Shown here piece by piece: positions 26,140-28,250 of a stretch of 64,000 bases of DNA. Under the pieces are notes generated by a model. The model saw only the letters and a list, made by a program, of their open reading frames with translations. It did no database searches and was not told the DNA's origin. Position numbers and translations under genes: made by a program. Position 1 is the first letter of the stretch. Each line of letters starts with the position of its first letter. Source of the stretch: Arthrobacter endolithicus (GTDB lineage: Bacteria > Actinomycetota > Actinomycetes > Actinomycetales > Micrococcaceae); NCBI RefSeq assembly GCF_026627425.1, contig NZ_JAPNLH010000012.1, forward strand, positions 1 through 64,000. The letters are read 5' to 3'.

Positions 26140-26358
26140 TTAGTTCTTGCGCCCGCAAAGAAAATAAAGAATGGGGCCGGCGAAATTGATAAACGAAGCG
26201 GCCACCCAGAGGGCTTTGGGACCGTTGACCTGCGCGGGCGTGCGCTTCTTCAGGTCCGCCAGCGCCGCGCCCTGCAGTGCAAGCTGCACGCCGGCCGCGA
26301 GCAGAGTTGTCCGTCGCTTCCCGGCGGACATGTCCTTCCACTTCTTCTTCCGTCCCAT
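26140..26358 (-). CDS. small membrane protein with PLDc_N-like segment
   Basis: 72 residues starting MGRKKKWKDM. It has a basic N-terminus, an amphipathic helix, and a C-terminal hydrophobic segment WVAASFINFAGPILYFLCGRK, which resembles the phospholipase D nuclease N-terminal family. AGGAG lies 6 bp before the ATG. Convergent with purC, 23 bp apart. Confidence 0.7.
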   Translation of the reverse strand: MGRKKKWKDMSAGKRRTTLLAAGVQLALQGAALADLKKRTPAQVNGPKALWVAASFINFAGPILYFLCGRKN

Positions 26359-26413
26359 CACCGTCTCCTGTCTTGTTTCCATTGACTGAGCGTCCACTAA
26401 AAGGCGTGTCCGG

Positions 26414-27658
26414 CTAGCTGACCCGCCCGGCAGCCCGCATTTCCAGTATGTTATCCAGTGCCAGCGCTACGCGGTCCCCGGCCCCGGCATGGGCAAACTG
26501 CTCCTTCGCCTCGGTCAACAACTGGAGCGCCTCCGGGAACTGGCCCATGGCCTTGTGCGTCTTGCCCAACAGCAGTGCCACCTCCCCGGCTGTGTGCTTG
26601 GCCAGATTCTCCCGTTGCCGGTAAATGTCACTGAGAAGGTCAAGCGCGGGATCGAGCGCGCCGGTGAGGTACAGCCAGCGGGCGCGGATCAAGGCCACCT
26701 CGAGCTCGTCGGCAAGGTTTGCGCCCACCACGGACTGCGCAAGTTCCGCCCGTTCGATTGCCTCCAGAGTGGCCGGTTCCACGACGCCTGCAGATAACCG
26801 AACGGACGCCGTGGCCTTGTTGAAGCGGGCCCATAGCGCCAGATCGCTGGCCGGGGAGAGCAGCAGCGAAGCCCTGGCATGGTAGGCCAGGCCCTGGTCA
26901 ACGTCATTGCGCATGAAGGCTACGTTGCCGATCACCCAGCACACTTCCCCTGCCAGCTGCGGCAGCATGGAACCATCATCGAGGTCGGAGAGTGTTTGGC
27001 AATGCACCCACGCATCATCCAGCCTCCCGCTTTCAGCGAGTGCGGCGATCAGGGTCCGAATGGCAGCGATATAGGCGGTTGACTCCTGGGGAAGGGAAGC
27101 ACCGCGGGCTACGGCGACGGAGGCATGCTCCACGGCCTCCGGCAGCTTCCCCAGGCCAAGGCATGCCGAGGCCATCAGCTGCCGGGCGCGGACTTCCAGC
27201 CCCGGTGTCTCCTCGGAGAGGGGATGCTTCAGAATTGCGCTGGTGACCTCTTGACACTGCTCGAAGTCCGCATCCTTTAGCAGCGCGCTGGCGTGCAGAT
27301 GAGCCATGTTCCACCAGGACACCGTGTCCTTGTTCTCCTGCGCCATCGATGCAGCCTTGGCCGCATGCGTGGCCGCTCTGGCATAGTCGCGCATATCCCA
27401 AGATTGCCGGGCGTAGAGAACAGCCAGGAGGTACTCGGTTTCTTCCGCCGAAACGGGAGTGGTCCATTCCTGGACGGCATGCGGCGCCAATTGCAGCTGC
27501 TTGGCGAGCTGGACGATGACTTCCGCTGTCGGTTCACGCCGGGCATTTTCCAGTAACGACACGTAGCTCGCTGAGTAGAGGTCGCCCCCAAGCTCAGCCT
27601 GAGTGAGACTTCTGGACAATCGTTCAGCCCGAAGCCGGTCTCCGAAACTGTTTCCCAT
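26414..27658 (-). CDS. XRE-family regulator with TPR-like C-terminus, candidate peptide receptor
   Basis: 414 residues. Residues about 5-60 are an XRE helix-turn-helix (FGDRLRAERLSRSLTQAELG, then SYVSLLENARREPTAEVIVQLA). The rest is all-helical with repeated W/L/A patterns spaced about 34-40 residues, as in tetratricopeptide repeats. This HTH-plus-TPR layout is that of RRNPP-type regulators (Rgg, PlcR, PrgX), which bind small peptides; it is also found in regulators with no known ligand. AGGAGG sits 5 bp before the ATG. Divergent from the repeat-peptide gene over a 157-bp region with a perfect palindrome. No membrane segment, so any peptide ligand would have to be imported. Confidence 0.87.
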   Translation of the reverse strand: MGNSFGDRLRAERLSRSLTQAELGGDLYSASYVSLLENARREPTAEVIVQLAKQLQLAPHAVQEWTTPVSAEETEYLLAVLYARQSWDMRDYARAATHAAKAASMAQENKDTVSWWNMAHLHASALLKDADFEQCQEVTSAILKHPLSEETPGLEVRARQLMASACLGLGKLPEAVEHASVAVARGASLPQESTAYIAAIRTLIAALAESGRLDDAWVHCQTLSDLDDGSMLPQLAGEVCWVIGNVAFMRNDVDQGLAYHARASLLLSPASDLALWARFNKATASVRLSAGVVEPATLEAIERAELAQSVVGANLADELEVALIRARWLYLTGALDPALDLLSDIYRQRENLAKHTAGEVALLLGKTHKAMGQFPEALQLLTEAKEQFAHAGAGDRVALALDNILEMRAAGRVS

Positions 27659-27720
27659 TCGTTCCTCCTGATACCCGCCCCGCACTGTCCGCACTGTCCG
27701 CACTGCAGGTTGCCGCCGGC

Positions 27721-27740
27721 ACTGTAACTATTGTGACAGT
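27721..27740. promoter_or_regulatory. interrupted inverted repeat ACTGT-N10-ACAGT
   Basis: ACTGT at 27721-27725 and ACAGT at 27736-27740 flank a 10-nt spacer, upstream of the peptide promoter -35. A plausible second regulator site in the shared intergenic region. Confidence 0.45.
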
Positions 27741-27762
27741 TGGTTTACACTCAGTTTACAAT
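27733..27762 (+). promoter_or_regulatory. predicted promoter of the repeat-peptide gene
   Basis: GTGACA (27733-27738, 5/6 to TTGACA), an 18-bp spacer and TACAAT (27757-27762, 5/6 to TATAAT). Transcription would start near 27769, giving a leader of about 47 nt. The -10 overlaps the left arm of the 19-bp palindrome. The spacer holds two GTTTACA direct repeats 11 bp apart (27743, 27754). Confidence 0.6.
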
Positions 27763-27777
27763 TGTTGTCAACAATTG
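27759..27777. promoter_or_regulatory. perfect 19-bp palindrome, candidate operator
   Basis: CAATTGTTG-T-CAACAATTG. On the minus strand it contains a consensus -35 (TTGACA at 27770-27765), with TGTAAA 16 bp further as a possible -10 for the regulator gene. On the plus strand it covers the peptide -10 and start site. One site could therefore control both divergent genes. Confidence 0.7.
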
Positions 27778-27815
27778 GAAATCACTCCTTCTCCACCGAT
27801 CCAAAGGCTGAATTG

Positions 27816-28151
27816 ATGAAAAGGTTTGCGAAGTCCCTCACTATTGCTGCAGTCGTGGCAGTATCCGCGTGCGCCCTGCCGGCCACAGCCAACGCAGCGG
27901 CACTCCAGTCCGTACCGTCCGCATCGGCGGTCCAACCGGCGAAGTTTGTCGGGAACTGGCCGGATGCTGTTGCTCCGCTGAAGTTTGTCGGGAACTGGCC
28001 GGATGCTGTTGCTCCGCTGAAGTTTGTCGGGAACTGGCCGGATGCTGTTGCTCCGCTGAAGTTTGTCGGGAACTGGCCGGATGCTGTTGCTCCGGCGAAG
28101 TTTGTCGGGAACTGGCCGGATGCTGTTGCTCCGGCGGTCGCTGCCAGGTAG
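27816..28151 (+). CDS. exported precursor with five tandem 13-residue repeats
   Basis: 111 residues. An export signal is clear: basic MKRFAK, hydrophobic core LTIAAVVAVSACALPA, then ATANA-AAL with AxA-type cleavage. VSAC at 16-19 also fits a lipobox, so a lipoprotein is possible. Residues 43-107 are five consecutive units KFVGNWPDAVAP(L/A); L ends units 1-3 and A ends units 4-5; the tail is VAAR. Outside signal and repeats almost nothing is left (about residues 29-42), so the repeat is the product. AAAGG lies 8 bp before the ATG. The design resembles a multi-copy peptide pheromone precursor; an exported repeat protein with a structural or toxin role is the alternative. Confidence 0.85.
   Translation: MKRFAKSLTIAAVVAVSACALPATANAAALQSVPSASAVQPAKFVGNWPDAVAPLKFVGNWPDAVAPLKFVGNWPDAVAPLKFVGNWPDAVAPAKFVGNWPDAVAPAVAAR
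27942..28136 (+). repeat. five 39-bp tandem repeats inside the peptide gene
   Basis: Units begin at 27942, 27981, 28020, 28059 and 28098. All five are identical at every base for the first 12 codons; only the 13th codon varies (CTG in units 1-3, GCG in 4-5). Such identity, including silent positions, points to recent expansion or homogenisation. The number of units may vary between strains. Confidence 0.97.
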
Positions 28152-28204
28152 AGACGTCCCACTGGCGTAATATAGGCTGCGGCGTCACTTTGCCGCAATG
28201 AGCT

Positions 28205-28250
28205 GAGAGAGGGTCCGCTTCCGGAATTTCGGAGACGGGCCCTCTTTGCT
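28205..28250 (+). terminator. terminator of the repeat-peptide gene
   Basis: AGAGGGTCCG (28208-28217) pairs with CGGGCCCTCT (28236-28245), 10 bp with one G-T pair, followed by TTGCTTCT. It lies 55 bp after the stop, so the peptide gene is monocistronic. Confidence 0.8.

Follow-up and report, generated by a model that had tools for sequence, protein, structure and literature searches.

In a 64,000-nucleotide stretch of the Arthrobacter endolithicus genome (assembly GCF_026627425.1, contig NZ_JAPNLH010000012.1, positions 1 to 64,000; hereafter the window), a gene for an XRE-type regulator on the minus strand stands divergently, 157 nt away, from a plus-strand open reading frame (ORF) for a small, apparently exported protein carrying five near-identical units. 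We consider it likely that this locus is a self-contained peptide autoinducer circuit working like the RRNPP systems of Firmicutes, in which the repeat protein would be the precursor of a short peptide and the regulator, with its tetratricopeptide repeat (TPR) C-terminus, the receptor. A preliminary description made from the letters of the window had proposed peptide signalling; the pairing of the two genes in relatives, the linkage of the repeated core to its receptor and the RRNPP-like model of the regulator support that proposal, and release, uptake and sensing of the peptide are put forward below as predicted steps.

The 111-residue precursor has a basic and hydrophobic N-terminus ending ANA-A, judged to be a Sec-type signal from its sequence and hydrophobicity, followed by five 13-residue units KFVGNWPDAVAP(L/A) at 27942-28136. 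Residues 1-12 are identical in all five, the thirteenth is L, L, L, A and A, and dibasic pairs are absent between the copies. The array expanded recently, because the units differ at the DNA level in their last codon only (Tandem Repeats Finder, period 39, 98% matches). A 39-nt period leaves several frames open at the locus; 27816-28151 is likely to be the coding frame because of its Shine-Dalgarno sequence, its signal-like N-terminus and the conservation of the frame across species, and the other frames were rejected, core conservation and synonymous bias holding in the annotated one. The gene has its own promoter-like site (two such sites were found in 3.5 kb, with 0.5 expected), and folding shows a terminator-like stem-loop at about 28205-28249 (z -4.2), the automatic terminator scan having given none at the precursor 3' end.

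The regulator begins at ATG 27658, and a start codon is present at the corresponding position in 87/87 receptors compared; an in-frame GTG at 27703 is the less likely start. Its helix-turn-helix (HTH) scores above cut-off (HTH_31, PF13560, 35.6 bits; HTH_3, PF01381, 30.6 bits), its TPR matches in Pfam are mostly sub-threshold, and none of the 13 models listed for it is RRNPP-specific. The protein is predicted to form a TPR superhelix within the range of about 5-9 repeats that marks RRNPP receptors, and its AlphaFold2 model (predicted local distance difference test score 90.2) resembles Rap, NprR and AimR in structural comparison (VIA-align); PlcR and Rgg/ComR are not among the 50 VIA-align rows listed, which excludes nothing. 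A receptor profile matches PlcR over positions 3-199 (E 3.5e-9) and ComR over the HTH only; a class-wide receptor profile matches PlcR over the HTH only, and a search with the single sequence found no characterised RRNPP receptor at E 0.01. The five-unit exported-type product, the transcriptional signals of its own and the divergent XRE regulator with a TPR-like C-terminus are therefore as first described.

The pair is conserved among relatives, whose family, order, class and phylum we take to be those of the relatives of Arthrobacter. The regulator is found in four of five genomes of the genus, its own included, and in 213/395 genomes of the family at E 1e-30. A profile built from 15 precursors was run against these 395 genomes, with hits counted at E 1e-6: both genes were present in 124, the receptor alone in 89, neither in 182 and the precursor alone in none (Fisher p 1.7e-44, relatedness ignored), and the single genus genome that lacks the receptor has no precursor match either. 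At the level of loci, 124 distinct receptors were recruited through the receptor search alone, with identical entries counted once, named duplicates (L034-L038) omitted and at most two receptor entries dropped for short flanks; 60 of these loci were hand-chosen for diversity from the listed receptor rows, and the fraction that follows does not describe a random sample. As the preliminary description had anticipated for homologues of the regulator, a small ORF with a Trp-Pro (WP) core faces 81 of the 124 receptors, 60 of these ORFs being multi-copy, 12 single-copy with a signal and nine tiny and leaderless (19-21-residue forms exist). A Sec-type N-terminus, basic plus hydrophobic by a hydropathy rule, is present in 72 of the 81. 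Multi-copy hits were rare in the controls (1/124 upstream on the same strand, 0/123 downstream on each strand, 6/2480 shuffles), as were hits of any kind (8/124, 4/123 and 2/123, and 119/2480, respectively), and chance adjacency was rejected on these grounds. By the detection rule a single core had to lie no more than nine residues from the C-terminus (four if leaderless), so that C-terminal placement is partly built in; L022 was scored as lacking a precursor despite one internal GNWPDPM copy, and L184, L185 and L187 despite tiny ORFs ending ..VDWP, ..GEIEWP or CC.

Comparison of the repeats points to the part of the protein that would be the signal. For the core, codon, tandem and HTH-less analyses, loci L099-L148, found through the precursor search and outside the 81/124 count, were also used, and the false precursor detections L044 and L177 were excluded from the core-agreement and codon counts. 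The cores are lineage-specific (GNWPDPM, GNWPDP[FS], GDWPH, GEWPH, GIWPN, GIWPDS, WIWPDS, GWWPN, IDDWPH, GSWPT and others). Among 78 multi-copy precursors, copies of the GNWPDPM type agree fully over [IV]GNWPDPM and those of other types to 0.91-1.00 over six residues; outside the core agreement is 0.15-0.53, except that precursors of the other types reach 0.61 at +3. Codon changes between copies number 682 synonymous versus 33 nonsynonymous in the core and 591 versus 1904 in the flanks (78 precursors; pairs not independent), and core changes are synonymous only in 62 precursors, absent in 10 and in part nonsynonymous in 6. Thus selection maintains six to eight residues of each copy while the linkers drift, and such core-only conservation is the pattern predicted for a released short ligand. 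In the window the ligand is probably VGNWPD to about VGNWPDAV, six to eight residues long, in place of the 13-mer originally suggested.

Two kinds of unusual repeat ORF were seen alongside these. The precursors of L137, L138 and L139 have five to eight PAVGNWP-type units. Six orphan ORFs (L129-L132, L134 and L135) carry two to four RIGNWPDPM-like units and no signal peptide, and each immediately follows the gene for a Pro/Val-rich protein that looks secreted; no receptor lies within the 5-6 kb fetched around these six loci. Five of the genomes concerned were seen to have a receptor-linked precursor with an IGNWPDPM core elsewhere, the sixth being G352.

The core also follows its receptor. In one genus two receptor-precursor pairs stand in tandem within about 3 kb (for example L142, L143, L145 and L165). 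Receptors of type A, taken from six genomes, are 76-92% identical among five, with L146 70-72% identical to those; their precursor was detected in 4/6, with IDDWPH in three and IDNWPN in one, and of the two remaining type A loci the L144 contig begins 216 nt upstream and at L146 none was found. Type B receptors of the same six genomes (62-91% identical) face [VI]GNWP[DG] in two to four copies in 6/6, and A and B are 55-58% identical within one genome. On this comparison and the receptor tree, receptor lineages have different cores, and a core stays with its receptor through duplications, as had been foreseen for repeat and receptor.

Pairing is seen, too, with receptors that have no DNA-binding domain. 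Among 155 receptor entries, some of them the same gene fetched twice, 26 are shorter than 380 residues, and a search of the 400 nt upstream at E 0.05 found an HTH only for L072, a frame break. Precursors face 21 of the 26, the exceptions being L072, L006, L175, L144 and one L146 entry, at least two of which are broken or cut by the locus end. TPR-only receptors of about 345 residues without an HTH are paired with core-bearing precursors at L133, L140, L142, L165 and L176, for instance, and parallel Rap as the HTH-bearing ones parallel NprR. The peptide is therefore constantly partnered with the TPR part of the receptor, and not with its DNA-binding part. These results bear on whether the product could instead be a secreted peptide antibiotic, or a ribosomally synthesised and post-translationally modified peptide, under XRE control, with a bioactive core that the adjacent receptor does not read. 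A small exported-type precursor, a conserved Trp/Pro-rich core and a promoter-like site and terminator-like stem of its own would suit such a product, but the core stays with the receptor through duplications, the pairing survives the absence of the DNA-binding domain, which a mere bacteriocin-gene repressor does not explain, and none of the five neighbouring genes that were scanned (purD, purC, PLDc_N, metallophosphoesterase and penicillin-binding protein) encodes a modification enzyme; we regard this explanation as improbable.

A candidate operator lies between the two genes. Overlapping the -10 of the precursor promoter is the element TTTACAAT-N3-TGTCAAC, which in the window is a palindrome; the pattern TACAAY-(2-5)-TGTCAA is found upstream in 38/48 loci that have a precursor and at least 50% receptor identity, in 1/21 loci of at least 50% identity scored without a precursor and in 1/2480 shuffles. 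With up to three mismatches allowed, the element occurs in its own genome only at the receptor/precursor intergenic site (two overlapping matches forming one palindrome); a backward control pattern gave one match in that genome. The eight relatives searched contain nine sites, eight at this locus and one extra weak one. The element was not seen at the six orphan multi-copy loci, and a regulon search with it in the own genome and the eight relatives found no output gene. Since the site lies over the -10, it suggests that the apo-receptor may repress the precursor promoter, with positive feedback on peptide binding.

In the autoinducer circuit that we propose, the precursor would leave the cell through Sec and be cleaved extracellularly to give several copies of a six- to eight-residue peptide around VGNWPD. 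The peptide would re-enter the cell, probably through an oligopeptide permease (Opp), and bind in the regulator's TPR groove; the regulator would itself bind the palindrome over the precursor -10 and most likely repress until the peptide binds; an output beyond the locus may be controlled as well. The genome has seven SBP_bac_5 matches (Opp-type binding proteins), which would make import possible. These proteins, together with the 72 Sec-type precursors, also speak against action of the peptide inside its producer, whether as an anti-repressor or by sensing the state of Sec or of a protease, in place of action between cells: the leaderless precursors and the leaderless orphan RIGNWPDPM-type ORFs could work in the cytosol, yet we think this explanation improbable. 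Least probable is a repeat protein that stays uncut, serving as a surface protein or as a multivalent ligand, secreted or attached to the wall, whose expression the regulator merely controls, for although the repeats are regular and reach eight copies, copy number in 109 precursors runs from one to eight, the protein ends one residue (26/109) or three residues (41/109) past the last WP in 67 of them, an ending that the detection rule favours in single-copy forms, and there are leaderless 19-21-residue forms and linkers free to vary.

Several observations weigh against the circuit as proposed. The WP motif and the single-copy C-terminal rule were picked after the data had been seen, although the controls were scored by the same rule. 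The copies in the window are identical in DNA bar one codon, so that selection on the core is visible in relatives only, and the operator-like element is found in 0/55 loci below 50% receptor identity. TPR superhelices are common, and against the regulator model the scores of MalT and of several eukaryotic TPR proteins equal or exceed that of Rap; in the profile search designed repeat proteins come out ahead of PlcR, but not within any one stretch. The analysis identified neither a protease for processing nor an importer partnership nor an output gene. Genomes without the receptor also give precursor matches at E values between 1e-6 and 0.1 (G015, for instance, at 0.003), and these weak matches were taken as chance. 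Lastly, the detection rule finds no core ORF beside 43/124 receptors; a missing peptide neighbour is thus not the rule among homologues, although 21 of these receptors form one supported clade.

On a receptor tree of 123 rows, built by a quick method, the absences are concentrated: 30 of the 43 fall in two groups, the clade of 21 (L029, L039-L042, L044, L045, L050-L062 and L079; full support) and a paralogue group of nine (support 91). The sisters of the clade, L010 and L008, keep their precursors. Within it 92% of the conserved TPR columns are kept and A304 is changed in 21/21, and its genomes hold no convincing precursor elsewhere (best E 0.01-0.05 or none, bar G142 and G238). This pattern suggests that the precursor was lost once, or that the clade turned to listening alone, and the solo receptors are possibly eavesdroppers.

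Related receptors extend beyond the family. In another family of the same order they carry GGSWPT repeats, and ten distant receptors were combined into a profile that is homologous to the window receptor over its full length (403 columns, E 3.6e-44) and matches 95/374 sampled genomes of the class at E 1e-25. A divergent Sec-type propeptide of about 40-64 residues was found at 24 of 30 class loci fetched (L210-L239), 21 with two cysteines (CC) at or near the end and three with WP cores; eight of the 24 were profile rows chosen for having such a peptide, and the count is 16/18 for loci not seen before and 8/12 for those seen earlier. In the corresponding controls any such ORF occurred in 3/30, 1/26 and 1/26 and one with the ending in 1/30, 0/26 and 0/26, and CC endings were found in 0/276 other control regions. 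The propeptides with CC at or near the end are about 40-51 residues long and stand beside XRE/TPR receptors of several actinomycete families, with endings such as ..IAPDWPVMCC, ..SPGDFCC, ..GGIWCC and ..HPPTCC, and DWPVMCC and NWPTMCC forms link the WP and CC types. From their endings, the CC propeptides are possibly a vicinal-cysteine class of pheromone. On balance we favour the view that actinomycetes hold a large unrecognised family of gene-encoded peptide pheromones read by XRE/TPR receptors, with WP-core hexa- to octapeptides, often in two to eight copies, in the family of the window and single-copy Sec propeptides ending in WP..MCC or ..CC in other families.

The alpha-factor and other Kex2-processed repeat proteins of fungi also carry several peptide copies per secreted precursor; the likeness is an analogy only, as the window lacks dibasic pairs between its copies and the receptor class is different. 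The closest parallel is with the RRNPP/RRNPPA systems (Rap-Phr, NprR-NprX, PlcR-PapR, AimR-AimP), described for Bacillus and other Firmicutes (PMC13220807). Shared with these are a cytosolic HTH-plus-TPR or TPR-only receptor, an adjacent small propeptide with what would be an export signal, a putative short linear ligand, the presence of Opp-type importers, solo receptors and multi-copy propeptides. For Firmicutes AimR, NprR, PlcR and Rap systems PMC9765709 reports propeptides of up to six copies, and it describes putative solo 'eavesdroppers'; across Firmicutes subfamilies the share of receptors with an adjacent propeptide is 40 to 100% (its Table 2). Multi-copy precursors are thus not new to bacteria, nor are solo receptors. 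The present systems differ in having actinomycete hosts, up to eight copies, a candidate operator at their own locus only, a precursor that is divergent and upstream, where Bacillales pheromone genes are immediately downstream (PMC9765709), and a WP core or C-terminal CC, neither of which is met in the available part of that paper. Streptococcal Rgg/SHP and ComR/ComS are similar in that the XRE receptor is joined by a very short ORF without a leader, at whose end the presumed ligand lies, as at L084-L088, but lack repeated copies in Table 3 of PMC9765709, whereas most precursors here have Sec-type leaders, and ComR matches our profile over the HTH only. As for the phylum, gamma-butyrolactones likewise serve cell-cell signalling in it; in their available parts, PMC10075063 gives Actinomycetota signals as typically small molecules, with a detector illustrated on Firmicutes and viruses, PMC4748050 names gamma-butyrolactones and cyclic or modified peptides, and neither account includes linear peptides read by TPR receptors. 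Among the literature matches listed, as titles and starts of abstracts, none concerned RRNPP-type peptides in Actinobacteria, coverage being incomplete and CC-ending propeptides not searched; the core letters returned only an influenza neuraminidase paper. New here are the family itself and the hosts in which it occurs, together with its core and the divergent arrangement of its genes, and with them intracellular peptide-TPR signalling, as we read it, in a new phylum.

The host genome is 3.96 Mb in size and close to that of Arthrobacter terrae (receptors 98% identical). Features of the locus are collected in Table 1; its surroundings are housekeeping, with purD, purC, a PLDc_N protein, tRNA-Pro, the metallophosphoesterase and the penicillin-binding protein. 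The small PLDc_N-type protein (26140-26397, minus strand) starts 16 nt past the regulator stop on the same strand and is perhaps co-transcribed with it. A nine-base tandem repeat CCGCACTGT (27680-27705, 2.9 copies) lies in the leader just 5' of the regulator start and is open in frame with the upstream GTG. An origin of the locus from a mobile element was rejected: no relative was found in viral contigs by profile, where 92 stretches matched a pattern and none was confirmed, or in plasmids or phages with the window receptor. A contig filed under Acidobacteria as a metagenome-assembled genome (JABBNV010000048.1, L037) has a receptor 72% identical to that of the window; the label is probably wrong, because a contig of equal size in G032 is placed in the window's family.

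Table 1. Features of the regulator-precursor locus, in window positions.
Feature	Position	Strand	Basis
XRE/TPR regulator, 414 aa, putative peptide receptor	26414..27658	-	ORF, Pfam, homologue starts, AlphaFold2 model
Promoter-like GTGACA-18-TACAAT of precursor gene	27733..27762	+	promoter scan
19-bp palindrome CAATTGTTGTCAACAATTG over -10, candidate operator	27759..27777	.	sequence symmetry, genome search
Shine-Dalgarno AAAGG	27803..27807	+	ends 8 nt before precursor ATG
Peptide precursor gene, 111 aa	27816..28151	+	ORF
Sec-type signal region, about residues 1-27, ANA/A	27816..27896	+	sequence and hydrophobicity
Repeat unit 1 KFVGNWPDAVAPL	27942..27980	+	
Repeat unit 2 KFVGNWPDAVAPL	27981..28019	+	
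Repeat unit 3 KFVGNWPDAVAPL	28020..28058	+	
Repeat unit 4 KFVGNWPDAVAPA	28059..28097	+	
Repeat unit 5 KFVGNWPDAVAPA	28098..28136	+	
Terminator-like stem-loop	~28205..28249	+	fold -32.7 kcal/mol, z -4.16, 0/200 shuffles as stable

Repeats under copy-by-copy selection delineate a ligand without biochemistry, and the tandem pairs and HTH-less receptors are natural tests of specificity and mechanism. A receptor-peptide family whose core can be read from sequence, present in Arthrobacter and in further actinomycete families, would open cell-cell communication in its hosts to direct tests with synthetic 6-8-mers.
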